Below, in pieces: positions 17,850 to 25,156 of a stretch of DNA of 64,000 bases. Source of the stretch: Faecalibacterium hattorii (lineage in GTDB: Bacteria > Bacillota > Clostridia > Oscillospirales > Ruminococcaceae); NCBI RefSeq assembly GCF_003287455.1, contig NZ_PRLC01000003.1, positions 1-64,000 of the forward strand, in the 5' to 3' direction. A model generated the notes under the pieces. That model was not told the DNA's origin, made no database searches, and was given only the letters and a program-made list of their open reading frames with translations. How positions within the stretch are numbered: the stretch's first letter is position 1; every line of letters starts with the position of its first letter. The translations under genes were made by a program, and so were the position numbers.

Positions 17850-19127
17850 TCATTCTTCGTACCGGATGGTCACGCTCTTGGCGTGGGCGTGCAGTCCCTC
17901 GCGCTCGGCGAAGTCGGCGATGCGGGGAGCGACGGCGCCCAGCGCCTCGCGGGTGTAGTAGATGAAGCTGGACTTCTTCACGAAGTCGTCCACGCCCAAG
18001 GGGCTGGAGAACCGAGCCGTGCCGCTGGTGGGCAGGGTGTGGTTCGGCCCGGCGAAGTAATCGCCCAGCGCTTCCGGCACATTGCGGCCGAGGAAGATGC
18101 TGCCTGCGTTTCGGATCTCGTTCAGCACACCGAAGGGGTCCTCCACGCAGACTTCCAGATGCTCCGGCGCGATGATGTTGCACGCCTCAATGGCCTTGTG
18201 CAGATCGGAGCAGACGATGATCTTGCCGTTGTCGTCCACGCTGGCGCGGGCGATGGCGGCGCGGGGCAGCTGGGGGATCTGGACTTCCAGCTCCGCCTGT
18301 ACGGCCTTGGCCAGCGCCTCACTGTCCGTCACGAGGACGGGGCTGGCCAGCTTGTCGTGCTCGGCTTGGCTCAGCAGGTCGGCGGCTACCCACGCGGGGT
18401 TGCAGCCGCCGTCCGCCAGCACCAGAATCTCGCTGGGGCCCGCGATCATGTCGATGCCCACCTTGCCAAAGACCTTCCGCTTGGCCGTGGCAACGTAGAT
18501 GTTGCCGGGGCCCACGATCTTATCCACCGCCGGGATGCTCTCGGTGCCGTAGGCCAGCGCGGCCACGGCCTGTGCGCCGCCGGTCTTGAAAATTTTGGTC
18601 ACGCCCGCCGTGGCTGCTGCCGCGAGGATGACCGGGTTCACCTTACCGTCCTTCCCCGCCGGGGTGGTCATGACGATCTCGGACACCCCCGCCACCTTAG
18701 CCGGGATCACGTCCATCAGCACCGTGGAGGGGTACGCCGCCGTGCCGCCGGGCACATAGACGCCCGCCTTCTCGATGGGGGTATATTTCTGGCCCAGTAC
18801 CACGCCGGGCTTGTCGTTCATCACAAAGTTTTTGTGCACCTGCTGGCGGTGGAAAGCCTCGATGTTGGCGGCAGCCTCCCGCAGTGTCTCAAGGAAGTAG
18901 GGGTCCATGTTGGCAAAGGCCTCGTCGATCTCCTCTTGCGTCACCTGCAAATTCTCGATGGCCGCGCCATCGAATTTCAGGGCATAGTCCTTCAGAGCCG
19001 CATCGCCGCGGGCACGGACGTCGGCAATGATGCCGTCCACCACATCCTCCACGTTCTTCTCCGCGCGGATGTCGCGGTTCAAGATCTCTTCGGGTCTCAG
19101 TTCGTCGAAGTTATACAGCTTGATCAT
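17850..19127 (-). CDS. hisD: histidinol dehydrogenase HisD
   Basis: 425 residues. 'GQKYTPIEKAGVYVPGGTAAYPSTVLM' region, 'KIVGPGNIYVATAKR', 'GIDMIAGPSEILVLAD', 'ADLLSQAEHD' and 'IAPEHLEV' are the signatures, including the catalytic Glu-His and Zn ligands. It oxidises histidinol to histidine in two NAD steps. The ATG at 19127 overlaps the hisZG stop by ATGA, with AGGAGG upstream. A longer in-frame opening would run inside hisG and is not used. Confidence 0.95.
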   Translation of the reverse strand: MIKLYNFDELRPEEILNRDIRAEKNVEDVVDGIIADVRARGDAALKDYALKFDGAAIENLQVTQEEIDEAFANMDPYFLETLREAAANIEAFHRQQVHKNFVMNDKPGVVLGQKYTPIEKAGVYVPGGTAAYPSTVLMDVIPAKVAGVSEIVMTTPAGKDGKVNPVILAAAATAGVTKIFKTGGAQAVAALAYGTESIPAVDKIVGPGNIYVATAKRKVFGKVGIDMIAGPSEILVLADGGCNPAWVAADLLSQAEHDKLASPVLVTDSEALAKAVQAELEVQIPQLPRAAIARASVDDNGKIIVCSDLHKAIEACNIIAPEHLEVCVEDPFGVLNEIRNAGSIFLGRNVPEALGDYFAGPNHTLPTSGTARFSSPLGVDDFVKKSSFIYYTREALGAVAPRIADFAEREGLHAHAKSVTIRYEE

Positions 19128-20716
19128 TTTGCAGCCTCCTGTAAGGTATCCCGCAGTTTTTCGAGCATTTCGTCCATTTCCTTGTGCTTGAACTGGTAGC
19201 TGGCCTTGTTGGCGATGAACCGGGCCGAGATGGGCAGGAACTCCGTCACGACCTTGAGGCCGTTTTCCCGGAGGGTCGTGCCCGTCTCCACGATGTCCAC
19301 AATGACGTCCGAAAGCCCTAAGATGGGGGCCAGCTCGATGGAACCGTTCAGCTTGATGATGTCGATATCCCGCCCCATGGACGCATAATAGTTTTTCGCG
19401 ATGTTCACGAACTTGGTGGCGACCCGCACCGGGCGGCTGGGGTCGTCCTGATAGTCTGCCGGGGCGGCCACGCACATCCGGCACTTGCCAAGGCCGGTGT
19501 CCAGCAGCTCGTAGACGTCCGCCGAGGCTTCGGTGAGGATGTCCTTGCCCACGATGCCCACGTCCGCCGCGCCGTGCTCCACGTAGATGGCCACATCGCT
19601 GGGTTTGACGAGGAAGTAGCGGATGCCCGCCGCCGGGTTCTCCACCACCAGTTTCCGGGTGGCGTTGTAGTCCTCGGTGCAGCCGTAGCCGATGCGGGCA
19701 AGCAGATCATAAACCTTGTCGCCCAGCCGGCCTTTGGGCAGAGCCACATTCAGCATGGTCTTTTCGGTCTTCTGCTGCTGCACCGGCGGCAGCGGAGCGC
19801 TCAGGCGGTCCAGCTCGTCGAGGTAGACCGCAAAGCCGATGGCGTCCGCGCCGGGGGTGAACTTCTGCATCAGCCGGTCGTACCGTCCGCCTTTGAGCAG
19901 CGGCCGGGGCAGACCCCGCAGATACCCCTGAAAGACCAAGCCGTTATAGTATTCCATCTCACCCGCCAGCGAGAGATCCAGCCGGATGCTGCCGCCCGCC
20001 GCTTCCAGCGGTTCGGCCAGCGCCCGCAGCTCGGCAGCGGCTGCCCGCATCCGGTCGTTCTTGCAGAAGGCTTCGGCCCGCGTCAGCGTCTCTTCGTACC
20101 CGCCGCAGAGGCTCAGCAGCCCGCACAGGGTCTCGGCCCCGGCATCGTCCAGCCCGGCAGCCTTGGCCGCTGCCCGCAGCTCGTGGGCATTTTTCTCCCG
20201 CAGTGATCCCAGCAGGGCCGGGCGGGCGTTTTCCGGCACTGCCAGCGCATCCAGCAAGCCGAAGAGGTAGCCCATGTGGCTCACTTCCAGCACCCACGCA
20301 GCCCCCATCTGCCCCAGCGACTGCGCCGCCAGCCGGACGGTCTGCTGGACCTGTGCTTCGCCCACGGCTCCCAGCATCTCAAGACCCATCTGGGAGATCT
20401 CCTTGAAGGTGTGGCTCTCTGCCGAGGGGCGGTAGACGTTCTCGTGGTAGTAATATTTCAGCGTCTCACCGGCTGCGGGCTGGGCCGTCTTGGCGATGGA
20501 AAGGGTCACGTCCGGCTTCAGCGCCAGCAGCCGCCCGTCCAAGTCCGTGAAGGTGATGACCTGTTCCGACGACAAAAAGCTGCGGTTTTCCTGATACAGC
20601 CCATACTCCTCGAAGCGGCCCATGTGGTATTTGCGGCACCCCGCCGCCTCGTACAGCGCCCGCAGCCCGAAGGAAGCCCGCTCCTTCGGCTGCAAATACG
20701 ACAGATCAAATTTCAT
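19124..20716 (-). CDS. hisZG: HisZ-HisG fusion: ATP phosphoribosyltransferase regulatory and catalytic parts in one protein
   Basis: 530 residues. Residues 1-315 are HisZ, a histidyl-tRNA-synthetase-like domain with 'ALKPDVTLSIAKTA' (motif 2-like) and 'LLKGGRYDRLMQKF'. A short linker 'PPVQQQKTEKT' leads to Met321, where the short-form HisG begins: 'LNVALPKGRLGDKVYDLL', 'VGIVGKDILTE', 'DIIKLNGSIELAPILGLSDVIVDIVETGTTLREN'. HisG joins ATP and PRPP in the first committed step, and the short form needs HisZ for activity and histidine feedback. They are usually separate proteins in a hetero-octamer. The frame runs unbroken with no ribosome site before Met321. As first gene of the operon it follows the his promoter, with GGAGG 8 nt before the ATG. 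Confidence 0.92.
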   Translation of the reverse strand: MKFDLSYLQPKERASFGLRALYEAAGCRKYHMGRFEEYGLYQENRSFLSSEQVITFTDLDGRLLALKPDVTLSIAKTAQPAAGETLKYYYHENVYRPSAESHTFKEISQMGLEMLGAVGEAQVQQTVRLAAQSLGQMGAAWVLEVSHMGYLFGLLDALAVPENARPALLGSLREKNAHELRAAAKAAGLDDAGAETLCGLLSLCGGYEETLTRAEAFCKNDRMRAAAAELRALAEPLEAAGGSIRLDLSLAGEMEYYNGLVFQGYLRGLPRPLLKGGRYDRLMQKFTPGADAIGFAVYLDELDRLSAPLPPVQQQKTEKTMLNVALPKGRLGDKVYDLLARIGYGCTEDYNATRKLVVENPAAGIRYFLVKPSDVAIYVEHGAADVGIVGKDILTEASADVYELLDTGLGKCRMCVAAPADYQDDPSRPVRVATKFVNIAKNYYASMGRDIDIIKLNGSIELAPILGLSDVIVDIVETGTTLRENGLKVVTEFLPISARFIANKASYQFKHKEMDEMLEKLRDTLQEAAK

Positions 20717-21510: not shown

Positions 21511-21849
21511 TTATGCCGTTACCCAAGCAACTGCGGTGACAGGCCACCAGCCGGCCAGATTGATTGCCGTATAAACACCAACCACAGCGTTGCCGACGGA
21601 CTTGTTCAGGTAATTTGCGAAAGCATCAATACCGCTGGCTGCCAGCTCGGTAACGGACTTGCCCTTCTTGTTCTTCTGGATCCACTCACGACTCTTGCCA
21701 ATGCCCCAGACCATATTTGCAATGGAAATGGTAGTACCGATCACCCAACCCACGGCGTAAGCGGTCCCAGCATCGCCACCAGAGGTGTAGGTCATTTCAT
21801 CTTCAGTCATGACACTGTAGCAAGCGGGCATCATCATTTTGTTTTCCAT
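21511..21849 (-). CDS. secreted peptide precursor with double-glycine-type leader (peptide B)
   Basis: 112 residues. The first 25 (M-E-N-K ... 'SVMTEDEMTYTSGG') form a leader ending in Gly-Gly, the type removed by C39-peptidase ABC exporters during class II bacteriocin or peptide-pheromone export. The predicted mature part of 87 residues is rich in Gly, Ala, Val and Trp ('AVGWVIGTTISIANMVWGIG', 'GVYTAINLAGWWPVTAVAWV') with a basic middle ('KSREWIQKNKKGKS'). AAAGGAG sits 7 nt before ATG 21849. It is the second gene of a two-gene unit, and the leader matches that of peptide A in length and core motif. No exporter or immunity gene is recognised nearby. I infer a bacteriocin-like or signalling role. 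Confidence 0.65.
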   Translation of the reverse strand: MENKMMMPACYSVMTEDEMTYTSGGDAGTAYAVGWVIGTTISIANMVWGIGKSREWIQKNKKGKSVTELAASGIDAFANYLNKSVGNAVVGVYTAINLAGWWPVTAVAWVTA

Positions 21850-21880
21850 AATAACACTCCTTTGAAAGCAATCTATCCCA

Positions 21881-21900
21881 AGCGGTGCACACTGCACCGC
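21881..21900 (-). promoter_or_regulatory. intercistronic hairpin between the two peptide genes
   Basis: GCGGTGCA (21882-21889) and TGCACCGC (21893-21900) form an 8-bp stem with a 3-nt loop. No T-run follows, so it is more likely an RNA stability or processing element than a terminator. Confidence 0.4.
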
Positions 21901-21952
21901 AAGTTTCCAAATAAATGCTATGGGGAACAAGTGGACGCGGAGTCCCGGCTCC

Positions 21953-22297
21953 TTAGACCAGAACGAGGATCAGGCTGATGGGAGCCAGACCCACCACCAT
22001 GGCGGTGGAAACACTATCGCGTAGGAAGTTGGAGGGACTCTTGGTCATGTCCTCGCCGATATCATCCATGGCGCGGCCCAGAACCGTCAGGACATTGCCC
22101 TTACGGTTGGATTTGTTGCTCAGCCAGTTGCGGGCGGCAGAAATGCCCCAGATGTAGCTGGCGCCCAGCACCACGCTGCCAACGACGGTGGCGGCCACCT
22201 TAAAGGTATCAAATGCAGCGCTTCCGCCCTCGGTATAGGTCATTTCATCTTCGGTCATCACCGCATACTCTGCGGGCAGTCTCAGTTCATTTTTCAT
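21953..22297 (-). CDS. secreted peptide precursor with double-glycine-type leader (peptide A)
   Basis: 114 residues. The leader is again 25 residues, ending 'AVMTEDEMTYTEGG', nearly identical to peptide B over 'VMTEDEMTYT'. The 89-residue remainder differs: 'FKVAATVVGSVVLGASYIWGISAARNWLSNKSNRKGNV' followed by a helical part and a hydrophobic tail ('STAMVVGLAPISLILVLV'). Both mature parts share the order Gly/Ala-rich helix, W-G-I motif, 'R.W' and a Lys/Asn-rich turn, so they are distant paralogues. AGAGGGA precedes the ATG. A promoter lies at 22383-22411. Pairing of two such peptides recalls two-component class II bacteriocins, but no immunity protein is seen. Confidence 0.65.
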   Translation of the reverse strand: MKNELRLPAEYAVMTEDEMTYTEGGSAAFDTFKVAATVVGSVVLGASYIWGISAARNWLSNKSNRKGNVLTVLGRAMDDIGEDMTKSPSNFLRDSVSTAMVVGLAPISLILVLV

Positions 22298-22499: not shown

Positions 22500-23663
22500 T
22501 CAGCCCGCGACACCCGCACGGTAGAGGTACGGGTCGCTGGTGAAGCTCGAATAGCTGTACAGCACTAGGATCGCGTCATAGTTATTGTCGGCGATGAGCT
22601 GGTCCAGCCCGTAGTTGTAATTGCGGAAGTCTACCACGTCGATGGCCCCATAGTTGGCCGTCAGGTAAGGCACGAAGCTGTTGGCGTAGCTGTCCTTGAT
22701 GACGAGGATCTTCCCCGTTCCGTCGCCCTCCACCCGGCTCAGGCCGTTGTTGCCGTGGAGAAACATGGCGTACTTGTCGTAAACATCCAGTTTCGCGGTA
22801 TCGTACAGGCCGGTCTCGGTGCCGTCGGTGGGCTGGCCGGGGCCGGTGACATTCCAGATGGTGAGCTTGTTCTGCAAGTCGTACCATGTGATCGTGTCCG
22901 GCTCGGCGTTCCACGTCCGCGCCTTGGAGTAATGGGTGCCGTAGAAGTCTTCCGCCGTCTCCACTGTATGCGTGCTGCGGTCAAACGGCGTCAGGCCCAG
23001 CTCCTTGCAGAAGGCTTCGTAGGCGTAGTAAGCCCCCAGCGTCGTCCAGTGGTGGTCCGTGCGATAATAGAGATACTCGTCCTTGTGGTCGTACAGAGCC
23101 GGAAGGACATTGATGAAATGCCCGCCCTGCACCACATTCGCGGCTTCGTTGATGCGGGCTTCCTCGTCCATCTGGGGCGCGGCGAGGGGCAGCTTTTCCG
23201 GGTAGACGGTGGAGGCCGACGGCACCAGCATGAAGCTGACCTTGCCGGGGCAGCGCTCGGACAGCGAACTCACCGCCGCGAGGTTCTTGTTCCATGTCTT
23301 CTCCTCGCTGGGCAGCACGCGGTACCGCCGGGCGAACATCCTGTGCTCCTTGCCCAGCAGGATGCCGCCGCTCTGGGTCTTCTGGAACAGGGTCGTCTCG
23401 GCAAGGCTCTGAAGGTCGATCCACTGATCCCGCCCGAAGACCTGATCCTTGACGTACTTCGTGTAATTGGTGAAGTAGCTGTTCAGCCCGTCCACCGACA
23501 CCGCCGTGAGCTTGGGCCGCTGGGTGAGGGTGGTGTTTTCCATCTCACTGTATGCGCGGTCGGGCGTTGCCATGTCCAGCACGAAGAGGGCGATGAAAAA
23601 CAGGCTGAAGGCCATCAGTACCGGGTACTGTTTGAGCGAGGACAAACGCTTTTTCTTTTCCAT
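22500..23663 (-). CDS. DHHW-motif (AlgX/DltD-like) exported protein
   Basis: 387 residues. One N-terminal membrane segment ('YPVLMAFSLFFIALFVLDM') is followed by an SGNH-hydrolase-like domain. 'YRTDHHWTTLGAYYAYEAF' is the DHHW signature (Asp-His pair), 'MFLHGNNG' and 'ILVIKDSYANSFVPYL' (catalytic Ser region) complete the pattern. Such proteins work with MBOAT acyltransferases to move acyl groups onto extracellular polymers, as AlgX/AlgJ do in alginate acetylation. The gene follows the MBOAT gene by 14 nt and is the last of the DUF4358-MBOAT-DHHW set. The polymer acted on is not known. Confidence 0.85.
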   Translation of the reverse strand: MEKKKRLSSLKQYPVLMAFSLFFIALFVLDMATPDRAYSEMENTTLTQRPKLTAVSVDGLNSYFTNYTKYVKDQVFGRDQWIDLQSLAETTLFQKTQSGGILLGKEHRMFARRYRVLPSEEKTWNKNLAAVSSLSERCPGKVSFMLVPSASTVYPEKLPLAAPQMDEEARINEAANVVQGGHFINVLPALYDHKDEYLYYRTDHHWTTLGAYYAYEAFCKELGLTPFDRSTHTVETAEDFYGTHYSKARTWNAEPDTITWYDLQNKLTIWNVTGPGQPTDGTETGLYDTAKLDVYDKYAMFLHGNNGLSRVEGDGTGKILVIKDSYANSFVPYLTANYGAIDVVDFRNYNYGLDQLIADNNYDAILVLYSYSSFTSDPYLYRAGVAG

Positions 23664-23677
23664 GATCCACGTCCTCC

Positions 23678-25096
23678 TCAGAAGTTAAAATACAGGAACG
23701 GGCTGTTGGTGCTGCCCACCACATAGGCCGTGGAGAGTACCAGCAGCACCAGCACCGTGGCCACACGGGTGGCCGTGCGCTTTTTCAGCGCGTTCCAGAG
23801 CGTTTCGATGAGCGGCGTACAGCAGACGGCGGACACCGCCAGCAGCACCCCGTAATTCCGCAGGAAATACACCGGCGAGACGCCGCCCGTGGGAACGAAG
23901 AGCCGGTGGAACAGTTCCCCGAAGCCGACACCGTAATCGTTGCCCACGAACATGGCCCAGCCCACCACCACGAGGAAGAGGGTGTAGACATGGGGCCAGA
24001 GCTTCCCCTTTTCAAGGTATTTCAGCAGGAAGAGCTTCTCGATGGCCAGCAGGACAAAGTAGTACAGGCCCCAGCAGATGAAGTTCCAATCCGCGCCGTG
24101 CCAGATGCCGGTGAGCAGCTCCACGACGAAGAGGTTGAAGATCTGCCGCTTGAGGCCCTTGCGGTTGCCGCCCAGCGGGATATACACATACTCCCGGAAC
24201 CAGCCGGACAGGGTCATGTGCCAGCGCCGCCAGAACTCGGTGATGGAGCGGGAGATATAGGGGAAGTTGAAGTTCTGGGGGAAATCAAAGCCCAGCATCT
24301 TGCCCATGCCGATGGCCATCATCGAGTAGCCGGAGAAGTCGAAGTAGAGCTGGAGCGAATAGGCGATGACGCCCAGCCAGACCAGCGCCGTAGAAGCATT
24401 TCCAAGGCCCACATAGGTGGTGGAAGGGCTGCTCTGGATGCCGATGATGTCGGTCCAGAGGGCGCCCACCGCATCCGCCAGCAGGACCTTTTTCGCCAGA
24501 CCAAAGGTAAACAGGGTCATGCCCTCTTCGATTTGCTTTAAGTGATAGCGGTGCTCGTAGACGTGGAGCTGCGCCGAAACATCGCGGTATTTGACGATGG
24601 GGCCCGCAATGAGCTGCGGGAACATGACGACGTAGGCACCGAAGTCGATGATGTTGTGTTCGGTCTTGACCTCGCCCCGGTAAACATCGATGGTATAGGA
24701 CAGGGTCTGGAAGGTGTAGAAGCTGATGCCCAGCGGCAGGGTGCTGATGCCCTGAATGGCCGCAAAATCCGTACCCAGCAGCGCGTTCAGGCTGGAGAGG
24801 ACGAAGTTCGCGTACTTGAAGTAAAACAGCATCCCCAAGCTGCCCGCCAAGGCCGCCAGCAGCAGCGCCGTGCGGGCGGCGGGCTTGGCCGCACATTTTT
24901 CCAGCCCCAAGCCGCACAGGTAGTTGATGAGGATGAGGGCCAGCATGACCGGGAAAAACCGGACTTCACCCCAGCAGTAGAACACCAGACTGCACACGAA
25001 GAGTACCGTGTTCTTGAGCTTTGCGGGCGCAAGGTAATACAGCGCCAGCGTGATGGGGAGAAACCGGAACAGAAAGATGATGGTGCTGAAAACCAA
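23678..25096 (-). CDS. MBOAT family membrane O-acyltransferase (AlgI/DltB-like)
   Basis: 472 residues with about ten membrane segments. 'FPQLIAGPIVKYRDV' and 'SRSITEFWRRWHMTLSGWFREYVYIPLGGN' are AlgI-type signatures, and the catalytic His is in 'LLTGIWHGADWNF'. It transfers acyl groups, usually acetyl, across the membrane onto a surface polymer. The start is taken as TTG at 25096: AGGAGG at 25103-25108 lies 6 nt upstream and the first helix begins right after it. An in-frame ATG at 25147 lies before that site and overlaps the end of the preceding gene. It forms an operon with DUF4358 and DHHW genes. Confidence 0.88.
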   Translation of the reverse strand: MVFSTIIFLFRFLPITLALYYLAPAKLKNTVLFVCSLVFYCWGEVRFFPVMLALILINYLCGLGLEKCAAKPAARTALLLAALAGSLGMLFYFKYANFVLSSLNALLGTDFAAIQGISTLPLGISFYTFQTLSYTIDVYRGEVKTEHNIIDFGAYVVMFPQLIAGPIVKYRDVSAQLHVYEHRYHLKQIEEGMTLFTFGLAKKVLLADAVGALWTDIIGIQSSPSTTYVGLGNASTALVWLGVIAYSLQLYFDFSGYSMMAIGMGKMLGFDFPQNFNFPYISRSITEFWRRWHMTLSGWFREYVYIPLGGNRKGLKRQIFNLFVVELLTGIWHGADWNFICWGLYYFVLLAIEKLFLLKYLEKGKLWPHVYTLFLVVVGWAMFVGNDYGVGFGELFHRLFVPTGGVSPVYFLRNYGVLLAVSAVCCTPLIETLWNALKKRTATRVATVLVLLVLSTAYVVGSTNSPFLYFNF

Positions 25097-25156
25097 GGTG
25101 TTCCTCCTTTGAAAAAAGGCCGATGCCGCCATGGCACCGGCCCACAACTGTTGTTT

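Follow-up and report, generated by a model that had tools for sequence, protein, structure and literature searches.

The window analysed here, a 64,000-nucleotide stretch of Faecalibacterium hattorii DNA, carries on its minus strand, between positions 21511 and 22297, two adjacent genes, A and B, whose products begin with double-glycine-type leaders (Table 1). The earlier note had taken them for a paralogous pair, and this was confirmed: the proteins share 37% identity across residues 1-108 of A with an E value of 5.1e-15 in a one-genome search, so their kinship is not due to chance. Both leaders contain the common stretch VMTEDEMTYT and end in Gly-Gly, the leader and mature lengths are those previously given, and the WGI motif, the R.W motif, and the basic Lys/Asn stretches are found in both proteins as described. 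For gene B, the open reading frame list places the start at an upstream TTG, and the ATG is preceded by an AAAGGAG motif recognised by eye. The B leader contains MMMPACYSV and near its start is similar (MMMPA.YSV) to the published leader (MMMPANYSV) of MAM, the Microbial Anti-inflammatory Molecule, an anti-inflammatory protein that in F. duncaniae is reported to outnumber all other envelope proteins (excerpts of PMC12184118).

Table 1. Features of the A/B locus in the window
Feature	Position	Strand	Evidence
Gene A	22297..21953	-	ATG start; 114 aa = leader 25 + mature 89
Gene B	21849..21511	-	ATG start; 112 aa = leader 25 + mature 87
Leader of A, MKNELRLPAEYAVMTEDEMTYTEGG	22223..22297	-	Leader profile, E 4.0e-15 (a row of the 11-row leader model, so the match holds by construction)
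Leader of B, MENKMMMPACYSVMTEDEMTYTSGG	21775..21849	-	Leader profile (likewise a row of the model)
Possible A promoter, TTGCAG-17-TAAAAT, weak -35	22411-22383	-	By eye; 8/12 consensus bases
Hairpin between A and B, GCGGTGCA-CAC-TGCACCGC	21882-21900		Perfect 8-bp stem, 3-nt loop, without T run
Terminator-like hairpin downstream of B	21449-21430	-	4 such sites in the scanned region vs 2.0 expected in shuffles
DHHW / AlgX-like SGNH protein, upstream of A	22500..23663	-	PF14286 2.4e-29, PF16822 5.2e-10
MBOAT O-acyltransferase (AlgI/DltB-like)	23678..25147	-	PF03062 1.3e-29

The hairpin between the two genes was confirmed, while the signals proposed to bound the pair held up in part. A -10 element close to the consensus can be read upstream of A, but the promoter as a whole is weaker than had been claimed, and the consensus promoter scan listed none upstream of A. 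A terminator-like site does lie 3' of B, but the scanned region holds 4 sites of this kind where shuffles predict 2.0. The MBOAT protein encoded upstream scored 168.3 bits against the NCBIfam DltB model, under its cut-off of 375. On the other side of the pair, a thioredoxin-like gene is followed by the his operon (annotation by reading), in which one frame (19124-20716, minus strand) seemingly joins a HisZ-like and a HisG-like part, a putative assignment by reading; a similar joined frame is present in genomes G003 and G014. By eye, no immunity gene was evident among the DHHW, A, B, and thioredoxin-like genes in the window, no modification gene beside A and B, and no sensor gene among their immediate neighbours.

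Neither A and B nor the relatives checked reached the curated cut-off of any Pfam or NCBIfam model. A matched Bacteriocin_IIc (PF10439) with 15 bits against a cut-off of 27.1, and MAM was also sub-threshold with 21.6 bits; B gave no match at E <= 1, and A was the only one of seven relatives that matched at this level. A PHROGs search with the seven relatives returned nothing under E 0.099, and the best E value in a PDB sequence search was 0.37. A Mersacidin model, which matched one of the seven relatives with a best E value of 0.001, was not used. AlphaFold models of A and B, predicted with 7 sequences as input, were all-helical and poor (pLDDT 51.2 and pTM 0.26 for A; 59.1 and 0.38 for B), and their quality led us to drop them as a basis for a fold search.

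The sub-threshold match of A fits the main rival reading of the locus, in which A and B would be a two-peptide (class IIb-like) bacteriocin or fratricide peptides that leave through the same exporter as described below, immunity being conferred by a gene located elsewhere or not recognised as such. Class IIb bacteriocins are likewise encoded by two adjacent genes with double-glycine leaders and are Gly-rich and hydrophobic. Their mature peptides typically have about 25-60 residues, in contrast to 82-109 residues in the 58 members of the A/B family, and both the lack of an immunity gene evident by eye next to A and B and the failure of every model to reach its cut-off speak against this assignment, to which we return with the evolutionary evidence. 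Peptide pheromones that signal through a receptor of the two-component or Rgg type are a far poorer fit and seem to us extremely improbable, because the known double-glycine pheromones are, to our knowledge, far shorter than these mature parts, no sensor is evident nearby, and the conserved neighbours are the MBOAT and DHHW genes. What speaks for them is that leaders of this kind also serve pheromones (excerpts of PMC7018657).

A common leader on unrelated cargo

The window's genome contains seven precursors with this style of leader at five loci, namely the A/B pair and single or paired genes on four further contigs (C6, C29, two at C43, C49). A profile built from 11 leaders was searched against 31 genomes of the genus at E <= 0.1 and matched in at least 27 of them, so the leader is conserved in relatives, which the earlier note had named as a check on its reading. 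Regions were taken from the 150 leader matches listed, and 103 loci were fetched, in which 185 open frames matched the profile at E <= 10. A filter on the Pro...Gly-Gly pattern and the start removed 16 frames, although two of these, a truncated MAM from G021 and a contig-end fragment from G005, look genuine; one accepted frame, sigma-factor-like by reading, was a false hit. This left at least 168 precursors in 27 genomes.

Clustering of the mature parts by BLAST divided the 168 precursors into 11 cargo families. FAM0, the family of A and B, comprises at least 58 precursors in 26 genomes, and FAM1, the MAM family, at least 34 in 24; FAM2, FAM3, FAM4, and FAM5 follow with at least 26, 22, 13, and 6 precursors in as many genomes each, and the remaining families have 1-3 precursors each. 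Comparison of the seven largest families by hhalign gave weak kinship for FAM1 with FAM2 (probability 55%), a trace for FAM2 with FAM4 (7.5%), and no other relation. FAM0 reached at most 0.5% with any other large family and 0.1% with MAM (E 0.4), indicating that the mature parts of A/B and MAM are not homologous; FAM7-FAM10 were compared by BLAST alone. Given that the mature parts are mostly without kinship, the leader is what the cargo families have in common. Of the FAM0 mature proteins, 55/58 have one or two TM-like segments, and B of the window has none at that threshold.

The leaders are 21-32 residues long and share Glu at -8 (166/168), Met or Leu at -7 (148/168), an I/L/V/M residue at -12 (166/168), Tyr or Phe at -15 (156/168), and Tyr at -5 (137/168). 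Pro at -18 is present in 164/168, but the filter forces Gly-Gly and favours this Pro, so neither is independent evidence. Binding of such leaders to the C39 domain occurs through hydrophobic residues at -15, -12, -7, and -4 (excerpts of PMC7018657 and PMC6363468). We scored the precursors by a rule for substrates of C39 peptidase-containing ABC transporters (PCATs) that requires these positions to be hydrophobic and the leader to end in Gly-Gly, Gly-Ala, or Gly-Ser, with a relaxed form that allows Thr or Ala at -4. The relaxed hydrophobic rule holds for 57/58 FAM0 leaders and 141/168 precursors overall, and a strictly aliphatic -4 residue is present in 10/58 and 86/168, respectively. Thr occupies -4 in 47/58 FAM0 leaders; LahT150, another C39 domain, processed a substrate carrying the V-4T mutation to completion (excerpts of PMC6363468). 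FAM3 (4/22 pass) and FAM5 (1/6 pass) mostly fail the relaxed rule, and these two families count against the general picture. The published MAM motif, MMMPANx(8,11)VxGG, is found in 25/34 MAMs but in 0/134 other precursors, including 0/58 of FAM0, and this narrowness would explain why the other cargo has gone unseen.

Two observations concern other cargo families. Precursors of FAM2 and FAM3 are encoded at L015 4191-5036, with homologues in other genomes, and MalQ-like and GalK-like genes (names by reading) are both present in the stretch fetched around the FAM2 locus in 18/26 genomes.

The exporter and its co-occurrence with the leader

The earlier note had found no exporter nearby, and this is correct for the window, which contains no C39 match. 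The genome, however, does encode one: the sole C39 gene found genome-wide at E <= 0.001 (G000:C49:1281-3674) lies on another contig than A and B, beside a MAM gene, and it supplies the C39-type exporter whose presence had been set as a further check. Its 797-residue product combines C39, membrane, and ATPase domains and scores 578.6 against the NCBIfam model TIGR01193 'peptide cleavage/export' (cut-off 523.85). Q8, C14, H92, and D136 are intact, corresponding to Gln8, Cys14, His92, and Asp136 named for the MAM PCAT (excerpts of PMC12184118). Its neighbours encode an HlyD adaptor, a bacterial Ig-like protein, and a precursor of the MAM family whose leader is MMMPANYSVIAENELSYVEGG, an arrangement much like that of the MAM locus in PMC8836110 (excerpts). 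MAM, the adjacent PCAT, and their link have already been published (excerpts of PMC12184118 and PMC8836110), the latter notes that PCAT and mam are separated in some genomes, and the former mentions a list of 257 MAM-like proteins.

Two features of the exporter locus were noted in passing. The Pfam match of the C39 domain falls into two pieces (G000:C49:1287-1772), as in the other PCATs of the genus, and this two-piece match points to an insertion between the His and Asp parts of the domain, as judged from sequence. In addition, a 158-aa protein without a Pfam or NCBIfam match is encoded at L014 5571-6047, between the MAM/PCAT genes and HlyD, and its homologue is present at all 16 FAM1 loci with PCAT and at 10 further PCAT loci, even where MAM lies elsewhere.

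Across the genus, a PCAT with the two-piece C39 match was found in 26/31 genomes, all 26 of which bear leaders; this count leaves out G020, which has a weak C39 match only, in a 293-aa frame. G025, which is 77% complete, has leaders and yielded no PCAT. The PCAT gene of G028 (L185 5063-7389) is broken up into two open frames, and the leader-bearing genes of this genome are still open; the split may be a sequencing error or mark a decayed exporter. Four genomes (G018, G019, G020, and G026) have neither PCAT nor leader at E <= 0.1 among the matches listed. They carry MBOAT and DHHW side by side, and the 7-10 kb stretches flanking these genes gave no FAM0 or leader match better than E 0.9. The co-absence of leader and PCAT has a Fisher p value of 1.6e-4, which is overstated because the four genomes form one clade (support 1.0 in the MBOAT+DHHW tree) and therefore reflect one gain or loss rather than four. 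FAM0 is present in 26/27 leader-bearing genomes, and DHHW was also not found in the exception, G024, which is 79% complete.

As an independent line of evidence from outside the genus, we searched 247 genomes of the taxonomic family with a wider leader profile at E <= 0.001. The sample included four members of the genus, three with leaders (G000, G015, and G016) and one without (G020). Six genomes matched, three of them from other genera, and in each of these three a leader and a C39 gene lie 1.5-6.2 kb apart on one contig. A C39 match was found in 63/247 genomes of the sample, which means that leaders of this type are missing from most relatives with a PCAT.

These data bear on a reading in which A and B are not exported at all but stay inside the cell or in its membrane, with an N-terminus that just resembles a double-glycine leader. 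Cleavage of A and B is deduced from sequence, and the TM-like segments of most FAM0 members would suit membrane proteins. Nevertheless, we regard this reading as very unlikely, since the leader is common to families without mature kinship, occurs together with PCATs in the genus and close to C39 genes in three other genera, and is absent from the PCAT-less clade among the matches listed. The interpretation as genuine double-glycine leaders, already put forward in the earlier note, is supported both by their retention in relatives and by the C39 exporter in the genome.

The MBOAT-DHHW locus and its evolution

All 26 FAM0 loci have the same order on one strand, MBOAT, DHHW, and then 1-3 FAM0 genes; in G009, DHHW and FAM0 are separated by a FAM10 precursor. 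One FAM0 gene is present in one genome, where the contig ends, two in 18, and three in 7. Beyond them, the first reference gene is an inverted DnaJ in 21 genomes and the Trx-HisZG-HisD series in 3, the window's genome included, with none in 2. The first slot holds a distinct type in 23 genomes (clusters at 45% identity). Averaged over 325 genome pairs, protein identity is 0.86 for MBOAT and 0.74 for DHHW; for the first FAM0 gene it is 0.54 in the leader and 0.55 in the mature part (325 pairs), and for the second it is 0.69 and 0.38 (300 pairs). The leader is thus better kept than the mature part for the second gene alone. Comparisons of the second slot between most genomes were not used as a measure of selection because the genes there are often not orthologues.

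For dN/dS we used seven close pairs (DHHW dS 0.12-0.23), six of which fall among the same four genomes, and excluded the even closer pair G027/G028, whose second genes are not orthologues. The ratios are 0.16-0.33 for mature A, 0.10-0.29 for mature B, and 0.05-0.14 for DHHW, indicating that A and B are real, constrained genes, under looser constraint than their neighbours.

The bacteriocin reading can now be weighed more fully. The strong variation in gene number and in the sequence of the second slot would be in keeping with it, and so would the Gly/Ala-rich hydrophobic segments, TM-like in nearly all FAM0 members; a Gly-rich cargo of two helices would be suitable for a bacteriocin as well. 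Bacteriocins are typically strain-variable, whereas FAM0 sits at one site in almost every leader-bearing genome, and mature A is under purifying selection in the seven close pairs. A and B differ from class IIb bacteriocins in length and in breadth of conservation, no immunity gene is evident by eye beside them, and we consider a bacteriocin unlikely, although it is the alternative we take most seriously. Accordingly, the class II bacteriocin or pheromone for which such leaders are known, as the earlier note had pointed out, is not supported for this pair.

A change of cargo can be read from a comparison of G027 and G028. Their FAM0 loci (L163 and L165) are 98-99% identical in two long blocks and differ by about 0.43 kb, corresponding to one gene unit. 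Upstream of its start, the second FAM0 gene of G028 matches gene 2 of G027, and from about base 40 of the leader it matches gene 3; gene 1 is a good match as well over the first 60 bases of the leader. In this one clear case, a junction inside the leader DNA changed the cargo behind the tag. We do not claim general recombination in leader DNA, as leader identity is only modestly above mature identity: within genomes, the nucleotide identity of 39 FAM0 pairs is 0.69 in the leader and 0.62 in the mature part, with the leader higher in 27, against a between-family baseline of 0.64 and 0.63 (408 pairs).

In viral contigs, a pattern matched 7 and 16 stretches, none of which encoded a relative at E <= 1e-3. 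A FAM0 relative (55.7%) is encoded at 1506-1850 of MT839569.1, a 4,184-bp entry of a phage collection that comes from human faeces and is labelled 'Bacteriophage sp.', which is probably bacterial DNA.

Proposed export route and related systems

Based on these results, we think it likely that A and B are precursors of small, probably helical secreted proteins that are delivered to the envelope as overlooked cargo of the Faecalibacterium MAM exporter. What the computation shows is that the A/B genes exist, that their leader is conserved, that the PCAT retains its catalytic residues, that leader and PCAT occur together, and that the gene order is kept; from this we infer cleavage, export, envelope location, and any working link to MBOAT-DHHW. 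The 25-residue leaders would bind to the C39 peptidase domain of the only PCAT detected in the genome, whose gene lies on the other contig next to those of MAM and an HlyD-type adaptor. Gly-Gly would then enter the C39 active site, the precursor would be cut after it, and the hydrophobic, probably helical cargo of 87-89 residues would pass out of the cell. Once exported, A and B would most likely be kept in or on the envelope like MAM rather than diffuse as a toxin or pheromone, a placement suggested by the MAM analogy and by the TM-like segments in FAM0; the location of MAM need not apply to A and B, their mature parts being unrelated. Solely from the neighbourhood, A and B may play a role together with MBOAT-DHHW, which we take to resemble partners in surface-glycan acetylation. 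The PCAT-less clade keeps MBOAT-DHHW without the A/B pair, so the enzyme pair does not need A and B.

A broader version, to which we lean only slightly, is that the single PCAT of Faecalibacterium serves as a general exporter of envelope proteins. A modular leader, carried by 11 cargo families whose genes are scattered, would direct some six proteins per genome to it, and recombination within the leader could swap the cargo, as in the one clear case above. If so, MAM would belong to a wider surface proteome in which the pair linked to MBOAT-DHHW would, MAM aside, rank among the most widespread components. Faecalibacterium is a major commensal of the human gut. Part of its anti-inflammatory effect has been credited to MAM (excerpts of PMC12184118 and PMC8836110), and if the MAM exporter also handles a scattered set of further small proteins, what is observed when the surface or the exporter is studied may not stem from MAM alone. 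The precursors would then provide a ready list of candidate surface proteins and a natural test case for cargo choice by one PCAT; the need to assign transporters to 'orphan' double-glycine peptides has been pointed out (excerpts of PMC7018657). The earlier note had considered the system possibly undescribed. In open-access texts, we found no paper describing the A/B pair or the scattered cargo set, whereas the exporter and the neighbouring MAM are published (excerpts of PMC12184118 and PMC8836110).

One exporter for unrelated, scattered cargo is a variant of the prochlorosin and pneumococcal PCAT schemes. The pneumococcal ComAB/BlpAB and RtgAB systems likewise use one exporter for several double-glycine peptides with hydrophobic residues at -15, -12, -7, and -4, and the rtg leaders, in which a region containing Pro -18 also serves and Y/L/M/L occupies these positions, are close to the Faecalibacterium pattern of Y, I/L/V/M, M, and T/L/V (excerpts of PMC7018657). 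They differ in that the pneumococcal cargo consists of quorum-regulated pheromones and bacteriocins, whereas the Faecalibacterium cargo consists of longer proteins found across the genus. Prochlorosins also combine a conserved Gly-Gly leader with diverse cargoes, and their precursor genes can be scattered (excerpts of PMC10783134 and PMC6363468), so the scheme has a precedent; unlike the Faecalibacterium precursors with their short leaders, they are lanthipeptides matured by ProcM and have long Nif11 leaders.

The closest comparison is with MAM itself, which shares with A and B the leader type, the genus, the presumed PCAT, and a cargo of about 100 residues. In contrast, the mature parts are unrelated, the published MAM leader motif does not occur in FAM0, and the fixed neighbours of FAM0 are MBOAT-DHHW rather than the PCAT. 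The MAM of G003 agrees with the published peptide at 21/21 mature residues and carries an identical leader. MAM-like genes whose leaders are shortened, reading MMMPANFSAVNAEVVYGG or differing little from it, also lie beside the PCAT in G002 (L183) and G012 (L187); these leaders score poorly on the profile and stand outside the 168 precursors.
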